From Achromobacter seleniivolatilans (GTDB lineage Bacteria > Pseudomonadota > Gammaproteobacteria > Burkholderiales > Burkholderiaceae_B): DNA of 64,000 nucleotides. A program made the position numbers and the translations under genes. This document shows, piece after piece, positions 16,844 through 42,217 of this stretch (within the stretch, counting starts at the first letter, position 1; each line of letters opens with the position of its first letter). Where the stretch lies: positions 4,526,001 through 4,590,000 of the forward strand of contig NZ_CP132976.1 of NCBI RefSeq assembly GCF_030864005.1, given 5' to 3'. A model generated the notes under the pieces. That model saw nothing but the letters and a program-made list of their open reading frames with translations, was not told the DNA's origin and made no database searches.

Positions 16844-19087
16844 CTAAAAGCCCAGTTCACGCACGGCAATCGCCGCTCCGCGCCGCCACACTCGCAACAA
16901 CAAGCTTTCGGCTTGTCCATCCACCACCGTGATACCGCGCATCGCCTGCAAGCGGGGCAATGCAGCGTTACCGGAATCGGCGGGACGCAGAGTCAGGCGA
17001 TACACGGCCCGTTCCGGCACCAGACCCTGCGACTCGGGGTCCGGCCGCGCGCTGTTATTCGGCGCCTGCATTGCGGGCACGGCCCCGCCGTGCGTGGAGC
17101 TCAATTCGGGAGCAGCGCTCAAGCGCCGGGTCGCCGTGGCGGCAATGTCCGATATCACCAGCGCTATCGATTCCTGGCCTGGGTCTTCCGGCAGGAAACG
17201 AGCATGGCCGCCCGCCTGCAAACGATGCAGATCCTCTTCCGACACATAGGCTTCCACAACGGCCTGCGAGGGGTCTGCCAGCGATGCCAGCCACTCCCCT
17301 TCGCCGACCCATTCCCCCGTCGCCAACGGTTCAGCCAGTTCGGCAATCACACCGCCAAACGGCGCCCGAACTGTCAGTTGATCGTACTGACGCATCAACA
17401 CCTCATGGCGTTCACGCGCCGCGTGCAGTTCGCCCACGGCAACGGGCACGGCCCCCGCAGTGACGCGATTCATGGCCTGGAAGGATTGCTGCCATTGCAA
17501 CAGCCGGATGCGACGCGCCAGCGTCTCGATCTCGTGCGTCATGTCTGGCGCGCTCAGCACGAACAACGGCGCACCTGCACGGACCGCCTGGCCCGGCGCC
17601 ACCGCGATCTGCTGAATCTGCGCACCCACGGGCGCCACGATGCGCGCTTGATTCGCCGCCCGCAGCAGAGCGGGCGCTTCAACGCGGGTGCGCCAGGGCA
17701 CAACGGCGGCAATAGCGAACAACAGTGCGACGCAGGCCGTAAGCCGGCTGCGGCGGTTCCAGCCCGCGCCGGGCTTGCCCAAAAGGCGCTCGCGCCAGGC
17801 GCGCAGTTCGGTATAGATCGGGCGCAGCACGAACGCCACGATCTCGATGGCGAACAAGACAATGCCCAGCAGTTTGAAAGCCATGTGATACACCAGCAGG
17901 GCAATGCCAAGAAACAGGAAGAAGCGGTAAATCCAGACGCTGAACGCGTAGATGATCAGCGCCCGCTCGCGCCACGGCGCGAAGACCTCTGGCTTGTCTT
18001 CGCCCAGTCCAAACAGCCATTCGCGCAGCCGCCACCGGGCCAACGCAAACGACCGGTTTTGCAGATTGGGCACATTCAGCACATCGGTCAGCAGGAAGTA
18101 GCCGTCAAAGCGCATCAGCGGATTCAGGTTCACGGCCAGCGTCAACAACCACGTCGTAGTGGCCAACGTAAACGCCGCGCTGCGCAGCATGCCGTCGGGC
18201 AGGAAGCTCCACGCCAACGTCGCCCAGGCGGCCAACGCCGTTTCAGCCAGCATTCCTGCCGCGCCGATAGACATGCGCTTACGGCGGCTGGAAAGACGCC
18301 AGGCGCCGGACGAGTCGGTGTACAGCACGGGCCACATCACCATGAAAGCCACACCCATCGTCGCCACGCGGCAACCATGGTGCTTGGCCGCATAGGCATG
18401 CCCCAATTCGTGCAGCACCTTGGCCGCGCCCAGCGTGACGCCGGCAGCCAGCGCGCCTTCCAACGTGAAGAAGTGCAGAAACGTGTGCACGAACTGGTCC
18501 CACTGGCGTGCTGCCAGGTACAGCCCCAGCAAGCCCGCCGCCAACGTCAATCGCGCGAACGTGCGCGTCAGGAACAACCGCCGCACCATCGGCAAGGTGC
18601 GGGCCAGAAAGGCGTCGGGCCGCACCAGCGGAATGCGAAAAAACAAATATTGGTGCACCAGGCTTTTCAGCCAATGGCTGCTGCGGCGCGCATCGGCCTC
18701 TTTGCCATAACGCGCGATGGCGTCGGGGCCACGCATCTGCACGAGGCTATTGGCCTGTAGAAATTGCGCAAAGTCTTTGACGTCCTCCGCGCCGATCGGC
18801 AGCGTGGTCGCTTTGCCCGCAGCGCTGGCGATGGCTTCGGCGCTGCCCAGCCGCCAGCGGGCGAGCATCTCCGCTTCGGCCCAGCCAATCTGAAAGAACA
18901 GACCGCGCCCCGGGTCTTCCAGCGTCCATGCAGGCGAGCCGTCGTGATTGGGCGGTGCGCGATGCAACAGCAGCTCTTCGCGCAGCGCAGGCAGGTCCGC
19001 CGCCGGGCGCTCGCCGGCAGCCAACGCGCCAGGCAATGCGGCAGGGCTGACCGCCTGTGACGGCACGCCGCTCACATTCCCAGCCAT
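16844..19087 (-). CDS. Site-2-protease (M50) / HlyD-type adaptor fusion, export cassette
   Basis: The 747-residue product has several parts. Residues about 55-120 resemble a small PqqD/RRE-like winged helix (GRGLFFQIG, then a DVKDFAQFL stretch). A polytopic M50 metalloprotease core follows, with HELGH at 226-230 and N322-PLMRF-D328-G, the two zinc-site motifs. After helices at about 380-425 and 455-475 comes a biotinyl-lipoyl/HlyD adaptor with a hairpin (about 480-660). It is the last gene of the giant-protein export cassette and overlaps the GAF/HlyD gene by 16 bases. The zinc-site residues are intact, so it may be an active intramembrane protease. No ABC ATPase is nearby. Its role in processing or moving the giant protein is inference. 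Confidence 0.85.
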   Translation of the reverse strand: MAGNVSGVPSQAVSPAALPGALAAGERPAADLPALREELLLHRAPPNHDGSPAWTLEDPGRGLFFQIGWAEAEMLARWRLGSAEAIASAAGKATTLPIGAEDVKDFAQFLQANSLVQMRGPDAIARYGKEADARRSSHWLKSLVHQYLFFRIPLVRPDAFLARTLPMVRRLFLTRTFARLTLAAGLLGLYLAARQWDQFVHTFLHFFTLEGALAAGVTLGAAKVLHELGHAYAAKHHGCRVATMGVAFMVMWPVLYTDSSGAWRLSSRRKRMSIGAAGMLAETALAAWATLAWSFLPDGMLRSAAFTLATTTWLLTLAVNLNPLMRFDGYFLLTDVLNVPNLQNRSFALARWRLREWLFGLGEDKPEVFAPWRERALIIYAFSVWIYRFFLFLGIALLVYHMAFKLLGIVLFAIEIVAFVLRPIYTELRAWRERLLGKPGAGWNRRSRLTACVALLFAIAAVVPWRTRVEAPALLRAANQARIVAPVGAQIQQIAVAPGQAVRAGAPLFVLSAPDMTHEIETLARRIRLLQWQQSFQAMNRVTAGAVPVAVGELHAARERHEVLMRQYDQLTVRAPFGGVIAELAEPLATGEWVGEGEWLASLADPSQAVVEAYVSEEDLHRLQAGGHARFLPEDPGQESIALVISDIAATATRRLSAAPELSSTHGGAVPAMQAPNNSARPDPESQGLVPERAVYRLTLRPADSGNAALPRLQAMRGITVVDGQAESLLLRVWRRGAAIAVRELGF

Positions 19088-20442
19088 ACGCGCAATGTTG
19101 CCAGGGGTTTGCGCAACAGATAACCCACGAGCGGCGTGCGTTCACCGTAGAGTTTGGCTGTACCCTTCAACCCCACGCGCGGCTGCACTTCCTGCGCGCC
19201 GGCCTCGTCAAACCGGGCACGCACGCGATAGGCCATGGCGCCGTCGGCCGTTGGCGCGGCGCGATAACCCACGCGCAGCAAGGTGGCGGACAAAGGCGCG
19301 ACGGGCGCAGTGTTCAAGAACAACTGCACCGGCGCCTGGGCGGGAAGTTCGATGGCATCGCCAACCGGCAAGTGGATCTCTAGCTCGACATCCGCAGGGT
19401 CAGCCACCATCATGATGCGTTCACCCAACGCGACCGGCTTGCCGATCCAATCTGCCGGGTCATCGAACAAGGCAATGCCAGCGCGTTCAGCGCGCAACTG
19501 CGCGCGCGCCACCGCCTTGGCGTAGAAATCCATGTCGCTCGCGGCTTGTTCGCGCTTACCTTGCGCCAAAGCCAGCGTCGCTTTGCTGCGGTCATCCACC
19601 AGCGCTTGCTGCTGGTTTTGCCGCAGCTCTGTTTCGGCCACCGCCAGCGCCTGACGCGCGCTTTCCAACCGTCCTTCCAGGTCGCGCACATCCAGCGCTG
19701 CCAGCAACTGGCCTTTCTCCACCGCTTGATTCGGCGTGACAGCAATGCGGTCGACCACGCCTTGCAGCGGCGCACGCACCGCCATGGGCGCGCGCGCCAC
19801 GACTTCAGCAGGCGCCAGAACGGATTGACGCACGGGCACGCACATCAACACCGCCACGGCCGCGCCCAGGCCCAGCCACCAGCGCGTACGACGCTCACCG
19901 TGGCGCAGCCGGCCCCACCAGGCGGACGCACGCCTGCGTCGCGCCACGGGCGTCAATGCACGCCATGCGTGAGCGTAGGCATCGGCCAGCAGTCCCAGCA
20001 TTGTTGATTCCGAGCCTGGCCAGGGCGTGTCGCGCCACAAGGCCAACAGCGCGTCACCAGGCTTCTTGCTATCTTGCGCGGTCAACGGCAGGCGCAACAA
20101 CAGACCATGGGCCGGCAGATGCTCTGCCCACATGGCCTGCTCGTCCGGCTGCGGCAGCAGGACGCCGCTTGCGCCATCCCGCGCACGGTCTGCCAGCACG
20201 CTGGCCAGCCACACGGTGTAAGGCGCGTTCTTATCCGGCACGGCCAGCCCCGACAGCGCGGCAATCTCGCCATCACCGCCCGTGCCCGGCATCCACAGCG
20301 CCGCCTGCCGATACGGCGCCAGCGCGTGGGTGTCGTTGACCATCAAGAAGGCCAGCTCTTGCGTATTGGCGCAGGCGCGTGCGCGCTTTTCCAGCTGCAA
20401 CAACGTGGCCAGCAGCTTGTCTCGCGATACGGCTTCTGTCAC
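19072..20442 (-). CDS. HlyD-family adaptor with N-terminal GAF-like domain
   Basis: The 456-residue product has a cytoplasmic N-terminal domain (about 1-165) that looks GAF-like: LLQLEKRARACANTQELAF, then ALAPYRQAALW. A basic linker and one membrane helix (about 188-204) follow. The periplasmic adaptor part then has barrel-sandwich halves (APLQGVVDRIAVTPNQAVEKGQ), a coiled-coil hairpin and a beta-barrel. A sensor-type domain fused to an adaptor suggests that export is tuned by a cytoplasmic signal. It overlaps the M50 fusion gene by 16 bases and the preceding adaptor gene by 4, so the four export proteins are made together. Confidence 0.85.
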   Translation of the reverse strand: MTEAVSRDKLLATLLQLEKRARACANTQELAFLMVNDTHALAPYRQAALWMPGTGGDGEIAALSGLAVPDKNAPYTVWLASVLADRARDGASGVLLPQPDEQAMWAEHLPAHGLLLRLPLTAQDSKKPGDALLALWRDTPWPGSESTMLGLLADAYAHAWRALTPVARRRRASAWWGRLRHGERRTRWWLGLGAAVAVLMCVPVRQSVLAPAEVVARAPMAVRAPLQGVVDRIAVTPNQAVEKGQLLAALDVRDLEGRLESARQALAVAETELRQNQQQALVDDRSKATLALAQGKREQAASDMDFYAKAVARAQLRAERAGIALFDDPADWIGKPVALGERIMMVADPADVELEIHLPVGDAIELPAQAPVQLFLNTAPVAPLSATLLRVGYRAAPTADGAMAYRVRARFDEAGAQEVQPRVGLKGTAKLYGERTPLVGYLLRKPLATLRVWLGM

Positions 20443-21254
20443 GGCGCGCCTGAGCCGGGAAGATCCACGCGGACGCTGCCGCTCATGCCAGGCAGAAGAT
20501 CCACCGACGCGCTCTGCTTGTCCTCGAGACGGCCGATGATCTTGACCGACTGGCTGACTGGATCCACTGCGCCCGCAATGTGCGACACGGCAGCCTCGTA
20601 AGTACGGCCCGTCTCATCAACGGTAATGCGCAGCGGCGAACCGGGCGTGAGCCACGCCAGCCAGCGTGAGGGCACAATCGCTTCCAGCTCGAAGGCGGAG
20701 TCGTCGTAGATGCTGACGAGTTTTTCACCTTCGGCCACGCTTTCTGCCGCGCGCGCATAGGTTTCCCCGACCCGGCCCGCGAACGGCGCGGTAATAGTGC
20801 AGCGGTCCACCAGCACGCGTTCAGCACTGCTTTCGGCGCGAGCGACGGCCACCGTCGCCCGCGCCTGTTCGACATCGGACCTGCTGATGGATTTCAAAAC
20901 CTCCAACTGCTCGGCCACTGCCTGCTTTTTGCGGGCGGCGGACTCCGCCAGCACGGCACGTTCCAGGCGAGCGCGATTCAGCGCGCAGTCGTAGGCCACC
21001 AGCACATCGCCCTTCTTGAAGCGGTCGCCTTCGCGAAACGGCAACGTGTCGATCTTGCCGGACAGTCCGCTTGAAATAACCGCGCGGCGCGCCGCCACCA
21101 ATTGCGCCCGGGCGCTGTCCACGGCGGGCGTCGCCGACAGCGCCTGCCCAGGCGGGATTGGCGCTTCTGCATACGCTATCGTCGATACACCCATCCACGC
21201 GGCCAGCATCAAGCCGGCGCGCGGACGCAAAGCAGGAAAAATCAACGAAGCCAT
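20439..21254 (-). CDS. Periplasmic HlyD/RND-type adaptor
   Basis: The product is 271 residues with a signal peptide or anchor (LMLAAWMGVSTIAYA). A short adaptor follows: VISSGLSGKIDTLPFREGDRFKKGDVL for the lipoyl half, a hairpin from about 95 to 145, and APFAGRVGE for the second half. It should bridge the inner-membrane components to the TolC-like protein. The ATG at 21254 comes 1 base after the TolC stop; a TTG at 21266 is the upstream alternative. It lacks the membrane-proximal domain of full RND adaptors, as in short adaptors of type I-like systems. Confidence 0.85.
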   Translation of the reverse strand: MASLIFPALRPRAGLMLAAWMGVSTIAYAEAPIPPGQALSATPAVDSARAQLVAARRAVISSGLSGKIDTLPFREGDRFKKGDVLVAYDCALNRARLERAVLAESAARKKQAVAEQLEVLKSISRSDVEQARATVAVARAESSAERVLVDRCTITAPFAGRVGETYARAAESVAEGEKLVSIYDDSAFELEAIVPSRWLAWLTPGSPLRITVDETGRTYEAAVSHIAGAVDPVSQSVKIIGRLEDKQSASVDLLPGMSGSVRVDLPGSGAP

Positions 21255-21255
21255 A

Positions 21256-23004
21256 TCAGCGCACAACTACAGGCAAGGATTCCACTGGGGCGGTCGCCGC
21301 GACCTGGCTGGAGCCTGCCACCGATCCCAGGTGGCTCCACATACTGCCCGAGACGGTACGCAACGCAGGCAGCGGGGCCGGAGCGGGCTCGCTTGCAACC
21401 GCCTGCGCCACCGATTCGGCCACGGCTTGCCCGGCCGCAGCGACCGCCGCCGGTTCCGCCACAGCCAGCCGCGGCACTTCCACATGGCCACTTTCGATCT
21501 TCCGGTTGGTCTCGGCGATATCGCGCGCCAGGCTCATCAGGGTTTCGTCGGCAATACGCTCGGGCAGCGGATCGATGCCCGCAGCTTGGTAGATCGTGTT
21601 CTGCGCGTTGACGAGTTCCGCATAACTCAGGTCCCGGGCACGTGTGGCCAGCAGTGTTTCGACCTTGGCGCGCACCACTTCCAGATGCGTTTCGGCGCTG
21701 CTGCGCGCGGCGTTTTCAGTCTGCACCTGAATCGCATCCTGCAAGCGGCTCAATTCATTGGCGCGACGGAAAGCGATCTCGGCGCGCTGGCGTTCCAGCC
21801 ACGCAATATGCACCTGACTAAGCACGGTCATACGCAGCGCCTGACGCCGCAACTCGGCCACCTGCTCGCGCGATTCGCCCGCGCGGCTGATCGCAGGCCA
21901 CGACAGCACGTTCAACAGGTTCCAGCTGACCTGCACGCCCGCATCCGCCCAGTTGTTGTTAGCCAGATATTTGTTGCTGTCGTAGCTCAGGCCGCCAAAG
22001 AGCGACGCATTGGGAAACAGGCGCAGCAGGGACATGCGCGTCTCCAGCACTGCATTGCGCGCCAGATAGCTTTCTTCTCGCAGCTCGGGGCGGCGAACCA
22101 TGGCCAGCGCTTCCAGATCCGCCAGCTCATAGGCCAGATTGGGCGACGTCAGCGTAGAAGCGTCCGGCGCGGCCAGCGTGAAGTCTGTCGTCAGCGGCAG
22201 ATTCATCAATGTGGCCAGACGGGCCTTGGCTTGCGCCAGCTCGTTGTCCAGCGCTTCGGTCTGACGCACCATGTTCAGCAAGTCCCGCTGATAGCGCAGC
22301 GCCAGGATGGGCGCTACCAGGCGCTTCTGTTCGGTCTGACGCGCGTATTCCAGCGTTTGGCGGGCTTCGGCCAAAGTCGACGTCACTCGGTCTTTCAGGC
22401 GTTCGGCCGTGACCGCGTTCCAGTATGCAGTGCGCGTCTGGCGGATGATGTCGGCCACCACGCGGCGGCGGCGCTCTTCGGCCGCCAACGCCTTGTTGCC
22501 CTGCGCCTTGGCGCCGAAATAGCTCAAGCCAAAGTCCAGCACGTTCCACGTCATCTGCAAGTCGGCGGTGTGGGTGTCGCGTTCCTGGCTTGTCGACGGC
22601 ACCAAAGACTGCACGCCCGTGGCCAGCGATTCGCTTGACGAACCATAGTCATTGTTGCGGGCACGCATGCCAGCGCGCGCCGTCAGCTTGGGCAGCATGC
22701 CCTGTTTCTGCACATCCACCAGATCGTCTTCCAGCGCACGCTCCATCAAGGCCAGGCGCTGCTGAAGGTTGTACTTGACCGCGCGTGCAATGGCCTCGTC
22801 CAGCGTAATCGGACCCGTCACCGGCTCTTGCTGCGCAAACATGACGCTGCGGTCGGTCTGGTCAAGCTTGAGCAGATCTTGCGTGCTCAACGTCTCGGGC
22901 GGGGCGACTGCGCAACCCGCAAGGACGGCAGTGGCAAGCGCCGTCAGCGCAAAACGGCGGGCGCGGTGTGTCATGGGCGGCTTGGATTGGGAAGAGAGAT
23001 TCAT
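21256..23004 (-). CDS. TolC-family outer-membrane lipoprotein
   Basis: The 582-residue product has the lipobox LAGC with Cys31. Two OEP (outer-membrane efflux protein) repeats follow: ITLDEAIARAVKYNLQQRLALMERAL near 65-90, and long helical hairpins later. It forms the outer-membrane exit duct. It starts 7 bases after the stop of the 3362-residue gene, so it is likely co-transcribed with that gene and serves as its exporter. It is longer than TolC (about 490) because of an extended C terminus rich in Ala, Pro and Val. A start at 22974 (second ATG) is possible. Confidence 0.88.
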   Translation of the reverse strand: MNLSSQSKPPMTHRARRFALTALATAVLAGCAVAPPETLSTQDLLKLDQTDRSVMFAQQEPVTGPITLDEAIARAVKYNLQQRLALMERALEDDLVDVQKQGMLPKLTARAGMRARNNDYGSSSESLATGVQSLVPSTSQERDTHTADLQMTWNVLDFGLSYFGAKAQGNKALAAEERRRRVVADIIRQTRTAYWNAVTAERLKDRVTSTLAEARQTLEYARQTEQKRLVAPILALRYQRDLLNMVRQTEALDNELAQAKARLATLMNLPLTTDFTLAAPDASTLTSPNLAYELADLEALAMVRRPELREESYLARNAVLETRMSLLRLFPNASLFGGLSYDSNKYLANNNWADAGVQVSWNLLNVLSWPAISRAGESREQVAELRRQALRMTVLSQVHIAWLERQRAEIAFRRANELSRLQDAIQVQTENAARSSAETHLEVVRAKVETLLATRARDLSYAELVNAQNTIYQAAGIDPLPERIADETLMSLARDIAETNRKIESGHVEVPRLAVAEPAAVAAAGQAVAESVAQAVASEPAPAPLPALRTVSGSMWSHLGSVAGSSQVAATAPVESLPVVVR

Positions 23005-23011
23005 GTCGGGA

Positions 23012-26000
23012 TCAGCTTGCTACATTGATGGAAGTGAACGGCCGGGCGCCAGCGTTCGTATGAATGGAGTCGCCCGCCGCGGCGTCATCGTCCAGGGAAG
23101 CGAGAAACTGCTGGGCTTGCGCCAGCACATCTTGTGCAGCGCTCATGCGCAGTTGTTGGGACAGCGCTGGCTTATCGGCAGCAGCCGGTGCGTCGTCACG
23201 CGCCGCAACGTTGCCATGGCGCCAAGCACCCAGGCGATCGGCGGACACGGTCACGGGTACCACCTTGACCTCGCCGCTGACGGTGCGCGCCACCAGTTGC
23301 AGGGCTAGCGTCTGGGCGCCCGCAAGCCCCGGGGCGACGATAAGTCCGCGCGCGGCATCCAGCCGCACGCCCGGTGGCAATTCGGTGCCATCAGCCATGC
23401 GCAGGACCAATGTCGCAACCGGGCTGCTGCTGCGGATCAGACCCGCTGGCAAGGCATAGACGTGCCGGTTGCCCGCCGCGTCGGCGCGCCAATAACCCGT
23501 GAACGCGGCTGCGGCAAATGACAGGCCGGGCGCATCGGGGCTGGCCAGCACCGCGAGCGGCGTGCGTATTCCGTTTGGCGCGTCCATCGTGAACGGCCGT
23601 ACCGCATCCGAATCGCGCCGTTCCAGCGAATCTGCCAGCAAGGCATCCAGCAGCGACGACGATGTCCACGGTTCTTGCGGCGTCAGCCCGTCGCGCGGCG
23701 AAACACCGAACTCCAGCGCTGGCGCTATCGGCGCACGCTCAACCGCCTGTTGCGCACGCTGTTGCAAGGCGTCTTCCTCGGCGCCGGCTTGCGCGTCCCC
23801 AGTGAAGAAGACAGGACGCTGCTGCGTGCTCAGGTCAGGCGGAGGAAAGATTGCCGGTGTGCCGGGATTCGGATTGGCGTTGGGATCGGGATTGGCGCCG
23901 GGGCTTGTACCAGGATTCGTCCCAGGATTCGTACCCGGGCTGGGTTCGGCGCTGACTGCGGCCACCGTCAGCGTCACGATGCGCGACACGCTGGCGCCCG
24001 ATGGATCGGTTGCGCTGATCACCAGCGCAACGCTGCCCGCCGTGCTTGCCGTGCCGCGTATCGTCAACGTTTCCGGATCGAAGACCAGGCCTTCGGGTAA
24101 GCCGCTGACCTGCCACGTCAGCGCATCACCGTCCGCGTCAGTGAACAGCCCGGCAGGCAGGGTGTAGACGTAGGCTACACCGACGCGTACCGTATCCGGA
24201 GCCAGCGGAATACCGCTGTCCACCGGCAGCGTGTTGGGCGGCAGGGCAGCGTCCAGCGTCAGCTCGCGCGAGGCCGAAAGGCCATCAGGGTCCGTCACGG
24301 TGACGACCAACGTGAACTGACCCGTCACGGTCACTCTGCCCGAGATCGTGCGTGTTTCCGCGTTGAAGACCAGCCCGTCAGGCAGGCCGCTGATACTCCA
24401 CGCCAACTTGTCGCCATCGGGATCGCTGAACAGCGACTCCGGCAGCACAACGGAATAGGGCCGGCCCGCCAGCGCCGCATCTGGCGTGTAAGTCGTGTTG
24501 CCTTCTACGGGCGCTTGATTGGGCAGGGCCAGCGTGACATCCACGCCATAACCCGTGCTGGCCGTTTGGCCATCGTTCAGGCTGATGGTGATGCTGCGTG
24601 CGCCCGGCGTCGCATCCGTGCTGGCGTAGGTCACGCGATGCAGCAGCGCATTGGCGTCGGCCCTGCTGATCGCCGCCGTGAACCGTAGCGTCGCCACGCC
24701 GTTGGCTTGCGTCAACGTGGCAATGGCTTGACCGTTGAACAAGATGACGTCGCCATTGCGCGTGTAGCCGTCACCGGTCTGCACCGCATAGCGGTCCCCA
24801 GCCTGGCCCGTGAAGGTCAGGCTGGCGCCTTGGTAGTTATCGGCGGCGTCCAGCTCCGCGTCGCTCAACGTCAAGACCGGCGCCAGCAACACCGGCTCGC
24901 CATCAATCACATAGACGGGCGAAGCGGCGGGCGGCGCATTCAAGACGTCCAGCGCGTTGCCCACCACGATGACGCCGCCATCTGCCGACACAACGATCTG
25001 GCCTGCGCCATCCAGTCCGCTCCGGGACCCGACCAGGCTGAGGTTGGCCGTGGCGTAGTAGTTCAACGTGCCATCGGCCAAGGTGACAAACAGCGCCTTG
25101 CCGTCTGCGGACAACGCAATGCCTTCCACTGTCTTGTCGCCGGTCAACGTGCCCAGATGGGTCAATGCGCCGGTCGCGGCATTCAGCCGGAACGCGTCGA
25201 TGACTTGCGTGTTCTCATGCACCTCGTATTCGCCCGTCCAGCCATTGAAACTCGAAGTTCGGCTGTTGGAGACGAAGATTGTGCTGCCATCGGCGCTGAC
25301 GGCAATGTGTTGCAGGTTGGCAAGCGACACCGCCTGCCCCGCCGCATCGGTATCGTTGGCGTAGAGGTGCGCCAGCGCCGTGAGCATACCGTTGCCGTCC
25401 CGGCGATAGACAATCAAGGCCGAGCCGTTGCTGGCATGGGTCACGACAAAAACCAGGTCGCCGCGCGACACCATATCGGTGGCTGCCCACAGATAGGGTT
25501 CGGCCGACATATCGCCGGCGACCGCACCCACATAGGTCAGCGCGCCCGTCTCTGCGTTGCGGCTGAAATACGCCAGGTTGTAGTTGTTGACCAGGTACAG
25601 ATTCTTGCCGTCTTGCGACAGTGTGATGCCCTTGATGTCGTTCAGATTGCCGGCATCCACCGCATAGTTGCTGGTGAGGGTGGACTGATGCGTCAGCGCG
25701 CCGTCTGCGGCGATGCTGAACACGCCGATGGCGTTGCTGTCCGCGCGCAGGGCGTACAAGCTCTTGCCGTCGACGGACATCACCAACTGACTGATGCCCG
25801 TCAGGCTGCCCACGCCTGCAAAGACGCCGGTGTAGGTCAGCGCCCCGGTTTGGCCATCGCGGCTGAACACGGCGATGGCGCCCCTGCCATCCGCGACATA
25901 GACGCGGGACCCATCCGCAGACACAACGCTAGAGGTCAGCGTGCCCAGCCCCGAAATCGTGGCCAGTTCCTGCACATGCGTCAGGTCGCCCAAGGACAAC

Positions 26001-29000
26001 ACCGGATCGGCGCCGACCACAGGCGCATCATTGATGGCGGCAATGTCGATCTCAAACTGCATCACCGATGAGGTCAGCCCGCGCTGGTCGGTCATCGTCA
26101 CGCTGACCTGGACGCTCTCGGCGGGTGCGTGGCTGCTGTTGGCGTAGGTGATTTGACGCAAGGTGTTCTGCACATCAGCGGTGGTCGGAATCGAACCCGC
26201 CGCATCGCTAAAGCGTATGACCAACACGCCGTTGGCTTGGGACACGGAGCCGATGGTCACGCCATCTTTCTTCAGACTGCCGTTTTCCAGCGTCAAGCCA
26301 TTGTCCGCCAGGAAGCCAATCGTATCCGACGCGCTCTTGCCTGCACCCAGCTCGATGGTCAGCACGCTGCCGTCATAATTTCCCGCGCCGCCGTTGAAGG
26401 CATCCATCTGGGCATCGGCAATGACTGCTCCCGGGGCAATTTGAACGGCGTCTGCACGCTCCGTGTAATCCACGGTGGCTCCGCCGCCCAGCGAGGGCGG
26501 CGTATTGACGCCAGTTGCGGCCGCCAACGTCACAGTCGCCTCCTTGGCGAGCTGTGTGGAAGCGTTCTCGCTGCCGAATTCCTGCACCGTCAGGCTGATC
26601 GTGCGCGTACCGGTAACCGAGCTGCCGGTGTTGCGGTAGGTCAGGCTGTTGATGACCTCGGCCGCACGCGCAGGCGATGCGTTCAGGTAAATGGTGACGG
26701 TCGCAACGCCATTGGACAGGGTCACCATGTATTCCAGGCCTGTCGCGGTGCGCTGCGGTCCGTTGGAGTCCTTGTCCAGCGCAATCCGGCCGCCATCCGC
26801 GCCCAGGATGTCCTGCGCGCCCGAAGGGCTGATTGTCACGATCACCCGCGCCACATTCTGACCCGCTTCAACGGTATCAATGGTGGTGTTCTCAAACAGC
26901 TTGACCGCTTCACCCTCGGCGTGGAATGTCGGATTCAACGGCGTCGTGTCAGCGATGGGCGCATCGTTGACACCTTCCAGATCAACTCCGGTCAGCAGCT
27001 CATCGCTGTGGCCATCACCGTCATTCAACACGGTGCGCAAGGTAATGGCGTTACCGTCGCGGGTCGGGTCGCTGCTGGCATTGCTATAGGCGATACGGCG
27101 CAATACGTTCTGCGCATCGGCCTGGCTGATGGCAGCGGTAAAACGCAACGTCAGTTCGCCACCGCTCTGCGCAAACGTTGCTACCGCCATGCCGTTCAGC
27201 AAAATCACGCCATTGGCCGCATCCAGCTGCAAGTTGCCGCCGTCGATAAAGCTGAACCGGTCGTCACCATGAGCGCCTTCGGCCCGTGCGATCGTGATGC
27301 TGGCGCCCTGGTAGTTGCCCTGGCCATTGTTCAATGCGTCCAGCTGCGGATCTGACAGCGTCCCAACCGGCAGAACGGCAACCGGATCGGTGCCTTCCTT
27401 GTAATGCGCCGATGCCGGTTTCAAGTCCAGCACCAGCACGCCCGCGTCGTATGAAAACTCGCCCGTCAGATACAGCTTCGTGCCGTCGGCGCTCAGGGTC
27501 GCGCTGCGTATCTCGGTGAAGTCCAAGCCGTCATAACTCGTGATTTCACTCACCAGCAATGGCACACCATCCGCGCCACGGCTGTAGACGCCGATCTTGT
27601 CGGCGCTGATCACAAACACGCCAGACCCATCAGGCGACACGATGACTTGTTTGACGTCGCCGCCGGGCAGGATGGCGCCAAGCGCTGTCAGCTGTCCATC
27701 CGCGCTGATGGACAGCGTGTGCACACGGTACTCATTGTTGTCGTAGTCAACGACATACAAACTCTTGCCGTCCGCGGAAACCGTCATCGACGTCGTGTAG
27801 TAGTACTGCTCCGAGGCCGCCGGGTCTTTGCCCTGGGCCGCCATCACGAAAGCAGGAACGCCGTTGGCGTCCAAACGGAACACGCTGACCAGTGTGCTGC
27901 CGCCCGACGTACCCACGAACAAGTAGCGGCCATCAGCCGACAACGTCAAGGCATTGGCGCCATCGAGTTGCAGGCCGCTATCACCGGCGTCCGCATACGT
28001 GTGCGCCAGCGTCAACGTGGCGCCGTCCTGTTTGAAGACGAGCAGATTGTCGCCCGCCGTCACATAGACGTTTCCATTGCTGGACAGCACATCGCGGATC
28101 ATGCCGTAGTCGGCCACGACGTTCGCGCCAAAGCTTCCGAGTGTGGTGAGCGCACCCGTGGCGGCATCACGCGAGAACAGCACGACGCCCTGATTGCCGA
28201 TCACATACAAGGATTTTCCGTCTGCCGATACACGCAGATCCGACGCACCCGCCAGCGCGCTTACGTCACCGTTGCCGAAGGACTGCACGATACTCAGCGT
28301 GCCATCTGCCCCTCGTTGCAAGACAAACAACGTGTTGACTTCAATGTCCTCGAACACTTCCGAGTTCCATTCGGTCGTGGTGCGCAACACGTAGAATTTT
28401 CCGTCTACGTTCGCCACGTCCAGAATGCCTTCCAGCAAATTGGTCCAGTTATCTTCGCCAAGCAGCTTGATCAGTTCGGCCATCGCAAGAGAGTCGATGG
28501 GCGTGTTGAGAACGGGCGCTTCAAACTGCACGTTCACCTTGGCGCTCAGGTCCGGTTCGGCCGTGTCGTGCCCTCCATTGCTGGTGCCGCCGCTATCGCG
28601 CACGGCGGTCAATGTGATGCTGCGTTCCCCCACCGTCGGCGCGGCGCTGCTGTTGGCGTAACCCAGCCCGTTGATCAACGCTGCGGCGTCGGCGCCTGTC
28701 AGGCCTGCCGTCGACGTCACGACCACCGTGACGGTTCCGCCGCTAACGGTAACGGTGTAGGCATGGCCTGCGGCCGTCACTCCCTGGCCTGCGGCAAGCG
28801 CAATGGCAACGCCATCAACGGTCAGCGTTTCGCTGGCGCCGTTGGCGACGCCCGACACCACCACAGTCAGGCTGGTGATGGTCTGGCCGCTTTCCACGGT
28901 AGAAACTGTAGTGCCGTTGAACAGGCCGACGGCCGCGCCACCCGGACTGTACGTTGTGTTGGCGGGAGTAGAGACAACGACCGGCGCGTCGTTCACTTGA

Positions 29001-32000
29001 GTCACGGCCAGGGCCACCACCGCGCTGTCAGTACCGCTGGCGAACTGATCCTGCACCTGGATCTTCAGACGAATCATGGCGCCGGGGTCCTTGCCATCGT
29101 GCGTATAGCTGACTTGATGCAGCACCGCATTGGCCGTCGCCGTGCTCACCTGCGCGGTAAAGGCGATAGTCAGCACGCCACCCGCATTCGTAAAGTCGGC
29201 AATCTTGATGCCGTTGTATCGAATCTCCGAGCCCACCAGGCTCAAGTCATTGCCATCAACAAAACCGAAACGGTCGCCAGTATTGGCGGCAACATCACGT
29301 CCGATGGTGATCGTGGCGCCGTGGTAGTCGCCTGCGCCGTTGGCCAGCGCGTCATAGTCGGCATCAGACAATGTGATGCTCGACGCAGGCGTTGTTGTTG
29401 CACCCTCGGTATATGCGCCGCGGCTGTCACTCCCAGCGCTCAGCATGCTGAGGGTGATCGTACTAAAGAAGCGATGCTTGCCTCCATAGATGGACTGGCC
29501 GTCAGCGCTGACGACCACGCGCGACATCCCGCCCGCCGTGCCGATCGTTTCCGAGAATGTCGGCAGGCCATCCGCGCCCACGGAATAGAGACTGATGCCA
29601 GTGCCTGCCGCAGTAACCAGATACAGAACCTTGCCATCGTCCGACAGCGTGAGTCCGTATGCCGTCTGGCCACCGATGGAAACGCTGGTCGTACCGGCCA
29701 GGCTCAACTTGCCGGCCGCGCTGTCGTAGCGCAACGTGGTCAAAAAGAAGTTATCGGTGGTGATATAGATGTTGCCCGTTTTCGACACAACAAAAGCATT
29801 GGCGCCACTGAACGCGTTGCTATTGCCCAGCGTTGCAATCTGGGTAGCCGCGCCCGTCGCGTCCGTCCAAGTCAACACCAAGGCGCTGCGTGTCAGCTGA
29901 CCCGAATAAGACAGGCTGCCATCGGCCGAGGCTGCAAAGATGGTCAGACGGCCGCCGCTCAGTGCATAGACCGTGCCGTCTTCGCCCAACTGAAGCGACA
30001 CCGCCGTACCAAACCCCGCAGCAGGCGCATACGTACCCAGCAACGTCAATGCGCCATCCGCGTCCGTGCCATAGGCTCGCAACGTGGTGGCGGTCAACAC
30101 GTACAACGCATCGCGGTCCTGGCCGGCCTTGATTTCCAGCACCTTCTCCGTCAGGTTGGCAACGGTGCCAATCTTGGTCAAGCCGCCGTTGTCCTCAACA
30201 TGAAAGACCGCAATCGAATACGCCGTTCCGCTGCCCGTGGCCACATACATCAGGCTGCCATCGTCGGTGTACGACACTGACGTGATGCCGGGCAGGACGA
30301 AGCTTTGCAGCAGCGTCAGGGCGCCTGTGGCGGTATCACGGCTGTAGACATAAAGCGTGCCGTCGCCGCCAGCGAGCTGCCCGCTGCTGCCTGCAATCAC
30401 TAGCGTGCTGCCATCATGCGACAGCGTCAGGCTGTTGACGTAGCTGTTGAAGCCGCTCAGGGAGCCGTCGCTGGTGTAGCCCAACGTGTCGGCCCCTGGC
30501 GTCAAGGCTGGCGCGCTGTTGCTGGCCTCGGCTTCCGAGATCACGCGCAGCGTCATCGTGTGCTCGGCGGTTGCGCCGTCTTCGTCGGTAACGGTGACGG
30601 TGATCTGGTATGCGCCCGCCGTAACCGGCGTTCCGCTCAGGGTTCGGCTGGCTGCGTCGAACACCAGACCCGCCGGCAGCGTCCCAACGCTCCACGTCAA
30701 CGTGCTGCCCGCGTACAGGCTGTCCGGATCGTGGAACATACCGGCGTCCAGCGTCACGCTGTAGCCCGGCTTGCCTGCGGGCGCCAGCGGCAACGTATCG
30801 GGCGCGTTCACGCTGACCTCGGGCGCACGATTGGCGATCTGGTCCACGTCCAGCGTCAGCGTGTGCTCTGCAGTGGCGCCGTACGCATCGGTGACCGTTA
30901 TGGTGACGGTGAAACTGCCAGTCGCCTGTGTCGTGCCCGACAGCGTGCGGGTATCGGCGTTGAAGCTCAGGCCTGCGGGCAGGCCGGTCACGCTCCAGCG
31001 TAACGTGTCGCCATCTGCGTCTTTGAAGAGGTCGGCAGGCAGCGAGACGCTATAACTGGTCTCGCTGGTGGCCTTGTCCAGGACATAACCGGCCGCCACG
31101 CCGGTGTCGATCTGCGGCGCATGATTCACGGGCAGGACCACGACAATGGCGTTGCTATCCAGCGCCCCGTCATTGCCACGCACCGTCAAGGTGATCTGGC
31201 TGCCGGCGGCAGCGTCAGTGTTGGCGTAAGTGAGCTGACGCAGCACCTGGTTGGCGGTCGCCGCCGTGGTTGACGCGGTGAACGTGATCGTCAGCGTATC
31301 GCCGCTAGCGGCAAACGTGGCAATGGCCACGCCATCCCGCTTGATCACGCCGCCCGACAGTTCAAGACCGTTGCCAACGGCAAAACCGAACGTGCCGGTA
31401 CTGACCCCCGCGCCAATAACGATGCGAGTGCCGTTGTAGTCGCCCGCTCCATTGGCCAACGGATCAGCGTTGACGTCAGACAGAGACAGGTTGCCGGCAA
31501 AGCGGATCGGATCACCGCCCACCGTGTAAGCCTGAGTCATGCTCAGACGGGTGACGCCGTTGCCCGCCACCGCGATGTTCTCGCCGTCGGGCGACAAGGC
31601 CAGCGCCGCGCCGCCGCTGACGCCGGTCAAGGTGCCGGTCAGCGTCAGCGCGCCCGTGGCCGAGATGCTGTAGATGGCCATCGACCCGTTGCTGGACGTT
31701 GCGTATAGCCGCGAGCCATCCTGGGACACGGCCAGCGCACTGACGCCGTTCAGCGTCAAAGTGCCGCGCGCTTCCAGAGCGCCATCACGCAGGGCATAGA
31801 TGCGGATGGTGGAGCCGTCGCCAATGAATGCCATGCTGCCATTGGCCGACACAGCCAGCGACGGCTCCGTGCCAACAGAGATACCGGTTATTTGCGACCC
31901 CGCATCCAGCTTGGCCAACGTGCCGTCAGCATTGCGGTGCAAGGTCACCAGATTGTTGCCCGACGCCACAAACACATAGTCGCCTGCGCTCGTCACTGTC

Positions 32001-33100
32001 CGGCTGCGCCCGCCGCCCAGCGAACCCTCATCCAGATTTTGTAGGTGCGTCAGATTCCCGGTTGCGGGGTCGCGGTTGAACACCGCCATGCCGTTGTACT
32101 GCATGGTGACGTAAACCTGCTTGCCGTCATCCGACAGCGCAATATTGCGCACACTGTCGCCAGTGGCCGTTGAACGCGCATTGGACAACGTGCCATCCAC
32201 GCCAATATCCAGGGCCACGATATTGCCGCCCGTGATGGCATACAGCTGCTTGCCGTCCGCGCTCAAAGCAAGGTCTGCGATATTGCTCAGGCCATTGATA
32301 CCCGCGTGGATCGTCTTGAACGTCAGCTCGTCGTGCTCGCCCACGGCAAACACCGCGATCGCCCCGGATGCGTTGGCGGCATACAGATACTTGCCGTCAC
32401 TGGAATAGGCGATCTCGCGGCTGCTGCCCAAGTCCGCCAGCGTGAACGTTTGCGCCACGCTGGGTACACCCGTATCCGACAGCACCGGTGCAACGTTGAT
32501 GTTGTTTCGGATCTCGACCTGGGCGCCGATATCCAACACCGCTGTCTCTTCGCCGGAATCGCTCAAGCTCGCCAACCGCACATGGATGGTGCCGCTTTCA
32601 ACCTTTGTGTCGAGCGCGCGGTAAGCAATGCCGTCGATCATTGAGGAGACATTGGCCGTGCTGTTGGCCGCCGACGAATCGATGGACAAGGTAATGGTGG
32701 TGATATTGCCGCTGACCGTCACCGAGTAGGAGTAGTCGTTATTCGCGGTGCTGCCGGCGGCGGATGTTGATTGCAGCTTGATCTCGGTGCCGTCGATGAC
32801 CAGCGCATGGCTGGCGCCGGTACGATCCACCGTAATGACCAGGTTCGTCAACTCTTGACTGCTGTTATCCAGCGACACATGCACGCTGTTGAACAGATCC
32901 ACATCGGGAATGCTGTCCGTGCTGTCGGTGATGGTGACCGTGGCGTGGTTCGGCGTCGCTTCCACTCCTGGCGCCGTGTCGGTGGGCGCCACATTCTTGG
33001 CAACGTCCGCCGCTGTTGCGACGGCGGCCGCATCAAGCAGGAAACGGGGTTCTAAAGCCAGTGCCTGGCGGCGGAGCGTAGAGAGTCGACGGGAAGTCAT
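23012..33100 (-). CDS. Giant LEPRxLL surface protein with four beta-propellers and cadherin/Ig-like modules
   Basis: A single open frame of 3362 residues. The N terminus holds ALEPRFLLDAA (LEPRFLL at 16-22), a motif seen at the start of very large secreted proteins. Four beta-propeller blocks at about 217-520, 874-1217, 1534-1894 and 2371-2724 are built from repeats of the type LSADGKxLYV-GxIxVFxRDxxTGALT. They alternate with cadherin-like modules (xLSDxxxDALANGAGDYxG), and with putative Ig/He_PIG domains at about 664-855 and 2861-3047. A Pro/Gly/Asn linker (3050-3087) precedes a 275-residue C-terminal domain. There are no RTX repeats and no autotransporter barrel. An AGGA site lies 7 bases before the ATG. 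It is probably a secreted adhesin or matrix protein exported by the downstream genes; the function is inferred. Confidence 0.9.
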   Translation of the reverse strand: MTSRRLSTLRRQALALEPRFLLDAAAVATAADVAKNVAPTDTAPGVEATPNHATVTITDSTDSIPDVDLFNSVHVSLDNSSQELTNLVITVDRTGASHALVIDGTEIKLQSTSAAGSTANNDYSYSVTVSGNITTITLSIDSSAANSTANVSSMIDGIAYRALDTKVESGTIHVRLASLSDSGEETAVLDIGAQVEIRNNINVAPVLSDTGVPSVAQTFTLADLGSSREIAYSSDGKYLYAANASGAIAVFAVGEHDELTFKTIHAGINGLSNIADLALSADGKQLYAITGGNIVALDIGVDGTLSNARSTATGDSVRNIALSDDGKQVYVTMQYNGMAVFNRDPATGNLTHLQNLDEGSLGGGRSRTVTSAGDYVFVASGNNLVTLHRNADGTLAKLDAGSQITGISVGTEPSLAVSANGSMAFIGDGSTIRIYALRDGALEARGTLTLNGVSALAVSQDGSRLYATSSNGSMAIYSISATGALTLTGTLTGVSGGAALALSPDGENIAVAGNGVTRLSMTQAYTVGGDPIRFAGNLSLSDVNADPLANGAGDYNGTRIVIGAGVSTGTFGFAVGNGLELSGGVIKRDGVAIATFAASGDTLTITFTASTTAATANQVLRQLTYANTDAAAGSQITLTVRGNDGALDSNAIVVVLPVNHAPQIDTGVAAGYVLDKATSETSYSVSLPADLFKDADGDTLRWSVTGLPAGLSFNADTRTLSGTTQATGSFTVTITVTDAYGATAEHTLTLDVDQIANRAPEVSVNAPDTLPLAPAGKPGYSVTLDAGMFHDPDSLYAGSTLTWSVGTLPAGLVFDAASRTLSGTPVTAGAYQITVTVTDEDGATAEHTMTLRVISEAEASNSAPALTPGADTLGYTSDGSLSGFNSYVNSLTLSHDGSTLVIAGSSGQLAGGDGTLYVYSRDTATGALTLLQSFVLPGITSVSYTDDGSLMYVATGSGTAYSIAVFHVEDNGGLTKIGTVANLTEKVLEIKAGQDRDALYVLTATTLRAYGTDADGALTLLGTYAPAAGFGTAVSLQLGEDGTVYALSGGRLTIFAASADGSLSYSGQLTRSALVLTWTDATGAATQIATLGNSNAFSGANAFVVSKTGNIYITTDNFFLTTLRYDSAAGKLSLAGTTSVSIGGQTAYGLTLSDDGKVLYLVTAAGTGISLYSVGADGLPTFSETIGTAGGMSRVVVSADGQSIYGGKHRFFSTITLSMLSAGSDSRGAYTEGATTTPASSITLSDADYDALANGAGDYHGATITIGRDVAANTGDRFGFVDGNDLSLVGSEIRYNGIKIADFTNAGGVLTIAFTAQVSTATANAVLHQVSYTHDGKDPGAMIRLKIQVQDQFASGTDSAVVALAVTQVNDAPVVVSTPANTTYSPGGAAVGLFNGTTVSTVESGQTITSLTVVVSGVANGASETLTVDGVAIALAAGQGVTAAGHAYTVTVSGGTVTVVVTSTAGLTGADAAALINGLGYANSSAAPTVGERSITLTAVRDSGGTSNGGHDTAEPDLSAKVNVQFEAPVLNTPIDSLAMAELIKLLGEDNWTNLLEGILDVANVDGKFYVLRTTTEWNSEVFEDIEVNTLFVLQRGADGTLSIVQSFGNGDVSALAGASDLRVSADGKSLYVIGNQGVVLFSRDAATGALTTLGSFGANVVADYGMIRDVLSSNGNVYVTAGDNLLVFKQDGATLTLAHTYADAGDSGLQLDGANALTLSADGRYLFVGTSGGSTLVSVFRLDANGVPAFVMAAQGKDPAASEQYYYTTSMTVSADGKSLYVVDYDNNEYRVHTLSISADGQLTALGAILPGGDVKQVIVSPDGSGVFVISADKIGVYSRGADGVPLLVSEITSYDGLDFTEIRSATLSADGTKLYLTGEFSYDAGVLVLDLKPASAHYKEGTDPVAVLPVGTLSDPQLDALNNGQGNYQGASITIARAEGAHGDDRFSFIDGGNLQLDAANGVILLNGMAVATFAQSGGELTLRFTAAISQADAQNVLRRIAYSNASSDPTRDGNAITLRTVLNDGDGHSDELLTGVDLEGVNDAPIADTTPLNPTFHAEGEAVKLFENTTIDTVEAGQNVARVIVTISPSGAQDILGADGGRIALDKDSNGPQRTATGLEYMVTLSNGVATVTIYLNASPARAAEVINSLTYRNTGSSVTGTRTISLTVQEFGSENASTQLAKEATVTLAAATGVNTPPSLGGGATVDYTERADAVQIAPGAVIADAQMDAFNGGAGNYDGSVLTIELGAGKSASDTIGFLADNGLTLENGSLKKDGVTIGSVSQANGVLVIRFSDAAGSIPTTADVQNTLRQITYANSSHAPAESVQVSVTMTDQRGLTSSVMQFEIDIAAINDAPVVGADPVLSLGDLTHVQELATISGLGTLTSSVVSADGSRVYVADGRGAIAVFSRDGQTGALTYTGVFAGVGSLTGISQLVMSVDGKSLYALRADSNAIGVFSIAADGALTHQSTLTSNYAVDAGNLNDIKGITLSQDGKNLYLVNNYNLAYFSRNAETGALTYVGAVAGDMSAEPYLWAATDMVSRGDLVFVVTHASNGSALIVYRRDGNGMLTALAHLYANDTDAAGQAVSLANLQHIAVSADGSTIFVSNSRTSSFNGWTGEYEVHENTQVIDAFRLNAATGALTHLGTLTGDKTVEGIALSADGKALFVTLADGTLNYYATANLSLVGSRSGLDGAGQIVVSADGGVIVVGNALDVLNAPPAASPVYVIDGEPVLLAPVLTLSDAELDAADNYQGASLTFTGQAGDRYAVQTGDGYTRNGDVILFNGQAIATLTQANGVATLRFTAAISRADANALLHRVTYASTDATPGARSITISLNDGQTASTGYGVDVTLALPNQAPVEGNTTYTPDAALAGRPYSVVLPESLFSDPDGDKLAWSISGLPDGLVFNAETRTISGRVTVTGQFTLVVTVTDPDGLSASRELTLDAALPPNTLPVDSGIPLAPDTVRVGVAYVYTLPAGLFTDADGDALTWQVSGLPEGLVFDPETLTIRGTASTAGSVALVISATDPSGASVSRIVTLTVAAVSAEPSPGTNPGTNPGTSPGANPDPNANPNPGTPAIFPPPDLSTQQRPVFFTGDAQAGAEEDALQQRAQQAVERAPIAPALEFGVSPRDGLTPQEPWTSSSLLDALLADSLERRDSDAVRPFTMDAPNGIRTPLAVLASPDAPGLSFAAAAFTGYWRADAAGNRHVYALPAGLIRSSSPVATLVLRMADGTELPPGVRLDAARGLIVAPGLAGAQTLALQLVARTVSGEVKVVPVTVSADRLGAWRHGNVAARDDAPAAADKPALSQQLRMSAAQDVLAQAQQFLASLDDDAAAGDSIHTNAGARPFTSINVAS

Positions 33101-33136: not shown

Positions 33137-34687
33137 TTATTCGACTAGCGTGGTCAGCGCGGCAAGCTGACGCAGTTCGTCGACGATGTCGTCAAGACGG
33201 CTTTGAATGCGGCCTTCCGAGGCCACGAAATCCTTGCCCGACAGATAGACCTGATCCGAACCCTTTTCGGCGCAAACCAATAAGCCAGGGCCGGCAATAC
33301 GGCGGAACGCGGACGCGCTGAGAATCTGGCCGTCTTCGTCGGTGGCTTCGTCGTTGCCGGTGACGATCAGGTAGAACTTCAGTCCACGGGCGCGGAAGCT
33401 GCTGCACAGGCGGGAAAAGCGTTCCGTCACAACGCTGGCTTCGCCTCCGCCCGTATCTGAATCGCCATCGATCTTCTGACCGGTGTAGGCGTTGTACGAG
33501 TCCGTGTCGAACCACCGCTGGTCGCTGGAATTCACCAGGAACACAATGGCCTTGACCCGGTCGCCCGTGCCGTCGTCGAAGTCCTTGGGCAAGTCGTCGT
33601 CCAACCCCCAGCCCGAACCGCCACGGAATGACGGCGCCAAGGCCATCGCGCTCCAGCCCATAGCAATCGCGTAATTCACGTTAAAGCGCGTGGACATCTG
33701 GTCCAGCCGTTCGCCGATATCGTTCAGATTTTTGGACAGCGGCAGCAAGGCGGCTTGCGGGCAGCCTCGGTCAGCCACCATAAAGCGCGTATCGTTCACG
33801 CCGTTTGCCAGGCCGAAGTCCGGGTTGGGGCCGATCCAGCGGATGGGCGTAGCACCCGGACTGCCGTTGATGGGCAGGTCATGGCGGTAATGAACACCGA
33901 ATTGACCCGAAGGCGGGTCCGTCCAGAAATAGTTGTTGCCGCGGTTCAGGCCGCGATACATGCACAGCAGGTTGGCGCGCCGGTCGGGAATACGGCGGTC
34001 AGCCAGGCTGGCGTAGCCGGTGCGGAACAGCGAGGTCAACTCCACCGGATTCAGCGCGCCCGGTGAGCTCCACAGCCGGATGCGGTTGTCATGCGCCGGG
34101 TCATAAATATTGACGGACTGGCTGTAGGGAACCAGCGCGAGCCACGCGCTCTCAGCGTCTTCGATCAACCGGGACGCGAACGACTTACCCAAGCGGCGCA
34201 GCACAGCCAGGTTGGCGGCGTCTTCGCCCAGCGTGTTGGGCAATGCCAGCGCCACCTCTAGCGATCGTTGACGCGATACCGCCGCGGACGCCACCGTGAC
34301 GGATTCGGCCGGCGTCTGGGACAACATGCTGGACGCCTCGAAAATGGCCGTCACGCGCGTACCCGGCATGTCGTTCTTCGTGATGGTCTCGACCTTGACG
34401 GACAACGCCCGGCTCAATTGCGAACGGTCCATGCCCAGATTGACGGCCACGTATCGCTCGGCAATCTCCTGAAGATCCGCATCACGCGACTTGGCGTAGG
34501 CGGCGGCAGAAGCCAGCGCCGCAGCATCGGTTGCGCGTTTCATCTGCGCAGCATCCGCCGTCATGCGGGTGCCGTCCGACGCAAACGCGGCCAGCACAGC
34601 AACCGCAGCGATCAGCAATAACAGAAACACGGCGGACGCGCCGCGTTGCCGCGCTAGCGATGGGACCCTATTGGAACGTTTCTTCAT
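33137..34687 (-). CDS. tadG: Tad pilus minor-pilin/anchor protein TadG
   Basis: The 516-residue product has a basic start, then RQRGASAVFLLLLIAAVAVLAAFASDG, the TadG/TadE-type N-terminal membrane helix. A von Willebrand-like region follows, with FYLIVTGND and VKAIVFLVNSSDQ. TadG proteins are pseudopilin-like or envelope-anchoring subunits of Flp pili. It overlaps tadF by 4 bases (ATGA). It is the last tad gene, and the giant LEPRxLL gene begins 36 bases after its stop. The length is in the TadG range. Confidence 0.88.
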   Translation of the reverse strand: MKKRSNRVPSLARQRGASAVFLLLLIAAVAVLAAFASDGTRMTADAAQMKRATDAAALASAAAYAKSRDADLQEIAERYVAVNLGMDRSQLSRALSVKVETITKNDMPGTRVTAIFEASSMLSQTPAESVTVASAAVSRQRSLEVALALPNTLGEDAANLAVLRRLGKSFASRLIEDAESAWLALVPYSQSVNIYDPAHDNRIRLWSSPGALNPVELTSLFRTGYASLADRRIPDRRANLLCMYRGLNRGNNYFWTDPPSGQFGVHYRHDLPINGSPGATPIRWIGPNPDFGLANGVNDTRFMVADRGCPQAALLPLSKNLNDIGERLDQMSTRFNVNYAIAMGWSAMALAPSFRGGSGWGLDDDLPKDFDDGTGDRVKAIVFLVNSSDQRWFDTDSYNAYTGQKIDGDSDTGGGEASVVTERFSRLCSSFRARGLKFYLIVTGNDEATDEDGQILSASAFRRIAGPGLLVCAEKGSDQVYLSGKDFVASEGRIQSRLDDIVDELRQLAALTTLVE

Positions 34688-37733: not shown

Positions 37734-37751
37734 GTCGATGTGTCGTGCAGG

Positions 37752-38735: not shown

Positions 38736-38756
38736 GTCAGGGTAGCCTTATCGCTG

Positions 38757-40190: not shown

Positions 40191-40217
40191 GATGTCGGTC
40201 GTGTGTGGCGTAACGGA

Positions 40218-41489: not shown

Positions 41490-41494
41490 GGCGG

Positions 41495-42196: not shown

Positions 42197-42217
42197 GGCG
42201 TGTCTCGTAAGCGGCGG

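Follow-up and report, generated by a model that had tools for sequence, protein, structure and literature searches.

Background

Type I secretion of the LapA type relies on an ABC ATPase, an HlyD-type adaptor and a TolC-type channel, and LapA-type adhesins carry an N-terminal retention plug. M50-type proteases serve for maturation in daptide and epipeptide systems. The SecA-type relative of the locus studied here is already published, as the secondary SecA_DEAD locus of Kamneva et al. (2015, PMC4452313). This locus holds genes for M50/HlyD, GAF/HlyD and HlyD proteins and sometimes an outer membrane channel (OEP), it has no ABC transporter, and its hosts include Proteobacteria and Nitrospirae. 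SecA was proposed as the ATPase and the M50 protein as the membrane pore. No client was found named for it, the words "LEPR" and "giant" being absent from the main text, and the available parts of the account gave no link to Tad genes and no client motif. Nykyri et al. (2013, PMC3767616) described a Tad/Flp pilus locus for Pectobacterium, Brenneria and Marinomonas, adjoined by a two-component system; in the available text of that account we found neither a giant protein nor an export cassette, and the words HlyD, hemolysin and downstream are absent from it.

In the open-licence literature, two papers were found to mention LEPR-XLL in passing. We found there no account of how LEPR giants leave the cell and no secretion experiment for the locus described below. 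The present analysis adds a client for the 2015 locus, two classes of client label, a C-terminal box, a class of cassettes without SecA and a clade linked with Tad pilus genes, and none of these five additions was found in print in the open-licence literature.

Gene content of the cassette

The window, that is the whole analysed stretch of 64,000 nucleotides from Achromobacter seleniivolatilans, carries a block of five genes on the minus strand, which the initial annotation had proposed from the letters and which we confirmed as real genes. The first encodes a LEPR giant protein of 3362 aa (23012..33100) with lactonase-type beta-propeller stretches, He_PIG/Ig-like repeats and not a single cysteine. 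It is followed by genes for a TolC-like outer membrane channel (OEP, 21256..23004), a lipoprotein as read from its lipobox LAGC, and for an HlyD/RND-type periplasmic adaptor of 275 aa (20439..21266). The fourth gene encodes a GAF/HlyD adaptor of 456 aa (19072..20442), arranged as a GAF fold (about residues 6-169), a predicted helix (184-200) and an HlyD part (206-431), and the last encodes a fusion of an M50 intramembrane metalloprotease with HlyD of 747 aa (16844..19087).

The window shares the giant client, the HlyD-type adaptor and the TolC-type channel with LapA-type secretion. It differs by the two extra fused adaptors, by the N-terminal LEPR motif of the client and by the missing ABC ATPase: no dedicated ABC exporter was identified among the proteins of the five-gene block, as had been noticed before. 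The remark that the client lacks RTX repeats was likewise correct, with zero GGxGxD nonapeptide repeats in 3362 residues.

On the 3' side of the cassette (13880-16744) there are genes for a TviB-like nucleotide sugar dehydrogenase, a DUF454 protein and a heme oxygenase.

Recurrence of the cassette and co-occurrence with LEPR giants

A profile scan of GTDB genomes gave 591 related loci, and the best 80 of them were analyzed. The M50/HlyD gene was present in 80 of 80 by selection, accompanied by a GAF/HlyD relative in 78, by HlyD in 63 and by TolC in 58, many loci being cut by contig ends; the two loci without a GAF/HlyD relative had only about 1 kb of upstream DNA each. Isolates of Corticibacter populi and Methylomonas methanica are among the carriers of the cassette. 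It means that the gene set recurs elsewhere, which was the first check proposed in the initial annotation. The second check, co-occurrence of LEPR genes with M50/HlyD fusions, was followed at the level of genomes for 40 of the 80 loci, mostly those on longer contigs, in 39 genomes. LEPR-8K was over its cut-off in 31 of the 39 genomes (41 matches). After exclusion of one frame of 33 aa, 22 of 40 LEPR matches, in 21 genomes, were situated at most 33 kb from the M50 gene on the same strand of the matching contig.

An even draw of 299 Pseudomonadota genomes was then searched with residues 1-450 of the M50 fusion, and LEPR matches over the cut-off were counted. An M50 relative was detected in 74 genomes and LEPR in 66; both were present in 57, LEPR only in nine, M50 only in 17 and neither in 216 (Fisher p ~4e-36, not corrected for kinship). 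No LEPR match was thus obtained in 17 of the 74 M50-positive genomes. The nine genomes with LEPR only had frames of 64 to 1014 aa, and these matches are probably chance for a model of 24 residues. LEPR frames of at least 1500 aa occurred in 46 of the 299 genomes, so such giants are frequent; all 46 genomes were M50-positive, and none of the 225 M50-negative genomes had such a frame. With frames of at least 1000 aa, 49 of 50 genomes were M50-positive. The link between LEPR giants and M50/HlyD genes is strong. It names a likely export machine for the giants and makes the client labels open to mutation.

Among the M50 matches listed, there were two groups, one at 304 bits or more (the class of the window) and one at 228 bits or less, which was taken as the putative SecA class by its scores. 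Frames of at least 1000 aa numbered 70, and 41 of them shared a contig with a listed M50 match at most 60 kb away. This match was of the window class for 21 frames, whose median length was 3374 aa, and of the other class for 20, with a median of about 10,080 aa. The remaining 29 were unlinked to a listed M50 match, some because of short contigs and some truly apart (as in genome G058). The longest LEPR frame seen had 19,427 aa (G100:C115:112865), and no listed M50 match was nearby on its contig.

A second cassette with a SecA paralogue

The host genome (6.86 Mb, 2 contigs) was searched with the M50 fusion and LEPR-8K, and a second M50/LEPR pair was identified at C1:925-963 kb. The second cassette to which it belongs (C1:923248-963355) encodes a TolC-like lipoprotein, a LEPR protein of 10,527 aa, a GAF/HlyD protein, an M50/HlyD protein that shares about 30% identity with its window counterpart, a SecA paralogue and an HlyD adaptor. 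The SecA paralogue, with 660 aa, contains SecA_DEAD, the SecA P-loop domain and the preprotein cross-linking domain, and SecA_SW was not among its Pfam matches. Ten GGxGxD matches were present in the 10,527-aa protein, and a SapC-domain gene is situated slightly upstream.

The second cassette fits the secondary SecA_DEAD locus as far as its account is available (PMC4452313), including the SecA_DEAD paralogue without wing and scaffold. The window has M50/HlyD, GAF/HlyD and HlyD proteins together, as that locus does, but a SecA_DEAD paralogue without wing and scaffold was not found among its five genes. So the window cassette is a SecA-less sister of the SecA_DEAD/HlyD/M50 locus, and the pairing with LEPR giants offers a client for a locus that had no known role in the available account of 2015 (PMC4452313).

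The window is not alone in this. No SecA paralogue was found in any of the 80 related loci within the locus DNA examined. In 35 of the 39 other genomes with a window-class cassette, SecA was found in one frame only, of 904 to 1098 aa, taken as the housekeeping SecA, and some of these 35 genomes are incomplete metagenome bins. Only four of the 39 (G025, G026, G035, G037) and the host had a SecA paralogue. In G025, G026 and G037 it was located together with a cassette of the SecA type and with a LEPR frame; in G035 there was a long LEPR frame on another contig. We therefore rejected the idea that window-class cassettes are in general driven by a SecA paralogue.

Client labels at the N-terminus and the C-terminus

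The window giant carries the motif LEPRFLLDAAAVATA at residues 16-30 (33011..33055, minus strand), of A-type by its label pattern. The LEPR-XLL model (NF012209) matched there with 17.7 bits at a curated cut-off of 17 bits, which supports the earlier observation that the motif of the client is N-terminal. We compared the N-termini of 20 clients near each M50 class, the host's own being excluded. All 20 clients of the window-class sample were at most 60 kb from a window-class M50 gene. In the other sample 19 of 20 were linked to M50, and one (L217) came from a genome with a weak M50 match (G317). The A-type label, RxxxD[AG] after LEP, was present in 20 of 20 window-class clients. The other class had 16 B-type labels, Rx[LM]LS[AG][DE], one label of window type (L212) and three variants (LLNSD, LLFSA and IFLSAD). 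The split of 20:0 versus 1:19 gave a Fisher p of 3e-10, with both patterns written after an earlier look at client N-termini. Because all clients were retrieved with one LEPR model, their common core results from selection; the A/B split does not.

A basic stretch precedes the label in many clients, and an Ala-rich stretch comes after LEPR. The best 11-residue hydropathy at the N-terminus of the window giant was 1.76, in a segment that includes an Asp. The TolC and HlyD proteins of related loci had medians of 2.46 and 2.37, though the HlyD of the window itself had only 1.75 by the same measure. Judged from these values, the client N-terminus does not resemble a classical signal peptide.

At the other end, the window giant has a box with a following stretch, KPALSQQLRMSAAQDVLAQAQQFLASL, at residues 3310-3336 (23093..23173, minus strand). 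Its consensus is roughly [KR]PxLSxQLR followed by a brief segment, and its distance from the client end is 30 to 56 residues in most cases. Twenty-five tails were chosen by eye, and a tail profile was trained on 12 of these and that of the window (13 sequences). Among the 3085 ORF ends that the 80 loci provided, the profile recovered the 12 training tails and 20 further ORFs at E of 0.003 or less, some of the matches being close kin of training tails (L015, L016); the next match had E 0.035. Nine of the 13 eye-chosen tails outside the training passed this threshold and four failed (L021, L038, L072, L079), and 11 matches had never been chosen by eye. All 32 ORFs end at most 250 bases from the next cassette gene; 11 of them showed no BLAST similarity to the window giant, and eight are frames of less than 1000 aa cut by the DNA end. 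Among long client-like ORFs, 24 of 43 passed the profile (12 being training members). The other 19 failed, among them the Tad-linked L019, L023, L026, L027 and L038, so the box is common, not universal, among window-class clients. Of the other giants of the host, neither the SecA-class protein nor the second ABC client matched the tail profile at its end, and the first ABC client did so only at E 8.4.

The initial annotation stated that the client has no C-terminal signal of the LapA kind. This needs amendment in part, as the client does have a shared C-terminal box, which could be a type I-like signal.

In the LEPR-class or client-like ORFs L046, L049 and L060 a hydrophobic stretch replaces the C-terminal box, and such ends were seen in Nitrospira and Nitrosomonas loci (L046, L060). 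In two Nitrospira loci the client-like gene comes after the M50 gene.

ABC exporters in the host and related genomes

The cassette resembles type I systems in having HlyD and TolC parts. This, together with a C-terminal box common to many window-class clients, suggests another explanation, a type I system with its ABC ATPase encoded in trans, in which the box would be the type I signal and the LEPR region a retention plug. ABC exporter matches of some kind were indeed obtained in 40 of 40 genomes. However, LssB-type exporters were over the cut-off in just 18 of the 40. The PrtD and HlyB models were searched in the nine genomes with a best LssB match below 400 bits (G001, G008, G009, G017, G024, G027, G029, G032 and G038), with the host as the tenth. 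PrtD passed in six of the nine (G008, G009, G017, G024, G029, G032) and HlyB in none, while the LssB matches of G027 and G038 were too weak for listing. Three genomes, G001, G027 and G038, thus pass none of the LssB, PrtD and HlyB models, though other ABC exporters are present in them. G001 is a Corticibacter isolate with a Tad-linked cassette, and G027 and G038 are metagenome bins. In addition, a motif scan flagged an ABC protein in only eight of the 80 loci, at varied positions, and none was conserved near the cassette.

The host has two LssB-type ABC loci (C1:2631-2649 kb and 6525-6545 kb). In each of them the ABC gene has OEP and HlyD genes as neighbours and is accompanied by a giant frame, of 4086 aa in the first and at least 4940 aa in the second. 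It is unlikely that these ABC proteins are hidden partners of the window cassette, because each has its own client. With these two loci, the host genome has four giant-protein export loci. We consider an ABC ATPase in trans unlikely for the window class, but not negligible.

The M50/HlyD fusion

The zinc motif HELGH of the M50 fusion is at residues 226-230 (18398..18412, minus strand), and NPLMRFDGYF with the distal Asp ligand at residues 322-331 (18095..18124, minus strand). HExxH and a distal Asp, with predicted membrane helices, place the protein with the M50 (site-2) proteases. The 80 loci had HELGH in 56 cases, HEFGH in 15, HEMGH in three and HEIGH in two, and the remaining four had Ser or Ala instead of Gly. 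Across 67 relatives there is no variation at Lys223, His226, Glu227, His230, Asn320 and Asp328. It means that the active site is kept.

The best NCBIfam match of the fusion was a daptide intramembrane protease model (NF041824), with 146.5 bits against a cut-off of 300, and the YydH/LiaK model (NF058609) for another RiPP maturation protease reached 27.3 of 225 bits. The M50 region can be aligned with both, and the daptide model aligns also with most of the N-terminal half. No PDB chain was similar in sequence at E 0.001. The listed fold-search matches of the whole model were HlyD and biotinyl-domain chains with no S2P or PqqD chain, a search in which the N-terminal and M50 parts were barely probed.

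The fusion might then be mainly a maturation protease, the giant going out by Sec and HlyD/TolC rather than being moved by the M50 protein. The daptide match, although below its cut-off, the invariant metal ligands and the Ala-rich stretch after LEPR agree with this explanation. On the other hand, the window M50 domain, unlike the daptide and YydH/LiaK proteases, is fused to an HlyD adaptor, and its partner is a protein of thousands of residues, not a peptide; this fusion and the GAF/HlyD relative alongside in 78 of 80 loci suggest a structural role too. A role mainly in maturation appears rather improbable to us.

The N-terminal part of the fusion was predicted to have three strands and three helices, the composition of PqqD-like leader-binding domains. 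PqqD was over the Pfam cut-off of 23.4 bits in the M50 proteins of two SecA-class loci (G037, G026), with 28.6 and 25.2 bits; against 67 window-class M50 proteins PqqD was weak, the best being one protein at E 0.16. When the M50 profiles were compared with one of 25 PqqD domains, the SecA class (five sequences) reached a probability of 88%. The window class (67 sequences) reached 41%, with a score of 26.7 against 16.8 for the best of 60 column shuffles. With E 0.16 and a profile probability of 41%, a firm RRE assignment for the window protein was not reached, and the PqqD/RRE-like domain at residues 32-112 (18752..18994, minus strand) is a candidate domain.

The initial annotation had let the M50 fusion take the place of the ATPase in a Sec-linked or protease-linked route. 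No nucleotide-binding domain is among the Pfam and NCBIfam matches of the fusion, and the SecA-type cassette has both an M50 protein and an ATPase, so M50 would be at most a membrane, recognition or processing part. The Sec-linked half of that proposal fares better, since it fits the SecA paralogue of the sister cassette in the same genome.

Proposed export route

We give an even chance to the explanation that the cassette forms a dedicated HlyD/TolC conduit without an ABC pump, in which the M50 fusion reads and may cut the client, a SecA-family motor drives it and the C-terminal box ends or anchors export. The cassette would serve for export and surface display of one giant protein. At the inner membrane, the M50 fusion would recognize the N-terminal LEPRxxxDAAA of the client, perhaps with its PqqD-like domain, and might also cut the client there. 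A SecA-family motor would push the unfolded chain across the inner membrane; the window class would rely on the general SecA/SecYEG for this, and the sister class on its dedicated SecA paralogue. The bridge to the TolC lipoprotein would be formed by the free HlyD and by the HlyD domains of the two fusions, M50 and GAF. The conduit across both membranes would consist of the intramembrane protease, three adaptors of the HlyD type and the outer channel. The C-terminal box might end export or anchor the giant.

The window class has no ATPase in the cassette and usually none to spare in the genome, so the general Sec motor is the simplest reading. It is carried over from the SecA-bearing sister class by analogy only, because most window-class genomes have no SecA paralogue. 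If this route is true, HlyD/TolC conduits extend to export without an ABC pump.

Linkage with the Tad pilus locus

A Tad/Flp pilus locus (33137..44773, minus strand) is located 36 bases upstream of the giant gene. A TPR protein, two T2SSF proteins, a T2SSE ATPase, a secretin and RcpC/CpaB were identified by Pfam; for TadG, TadZ and two small genes the assignment is based solely on position and synteny. A two-component system (45739..47962, minus strand) heads the Tad run, with the histidine kinase assigned by Pfam and the regulator by position. TadG is the last gene of the Tad locus, and the giant gene begins 36 bases past it.

Eighteen upstream regions of LEPR genes were usable for Tad counts, L254 and L257 being left out. 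A TadG relative was directly upstream of the LEPR gene in nine of them (seven with most of a Tad locus), from Bordetella ansorpii, Corticibacter, two Pectobacterium, Serratia, two Pseudomonas, Pantoea and Marinomonas. The other nine regions had no Tad genes; one of these (L244) belongs to a LEPR gene that is not situated at a cassette. In a FastTree tree of 67 window-class and four other-class proteins, the ten Tad-linked members present fell in one clade of 20 with support of 0.996. No member of this clade is known to lack Tad, and the remaining ten are of unknown context. The window belongs to this Tad-linked clade.

That the cassette is part of the Tad pilus, with a pilus-associated giant exported by the power of the neighbouring TadA ATPase, would agree with the 36-base spacing, the nine upstream TadG relatives and the single clade, but it is very improbable, and TadA was rejected as the general motor because the cassettes in regions without Tad genes keep the same parts.

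For the Tad-linked clade, the proposed HlyD/TolC route would operate with a cassette fused to a Tad locus, and because of this fusion the pilus and the giant are probably made together. A broader view, which we put forward as possible and rather doubtful, is that of a widespread pathway outside the numbered secretion types, in which a protease-adaptor would select giants by the LEPR label and pass them to a SecA-family motor, with two label-specific classes, and in which the merger with Tad would have given a joint attachment organelle.

The genera hosting the Tad/Flp locus in the available text of Nykyri et al. (PMC3767616) overlap with those of the Tad-linked cassettes. In a second Marinomonas locus (L027), TadG was found in the locus DNA.
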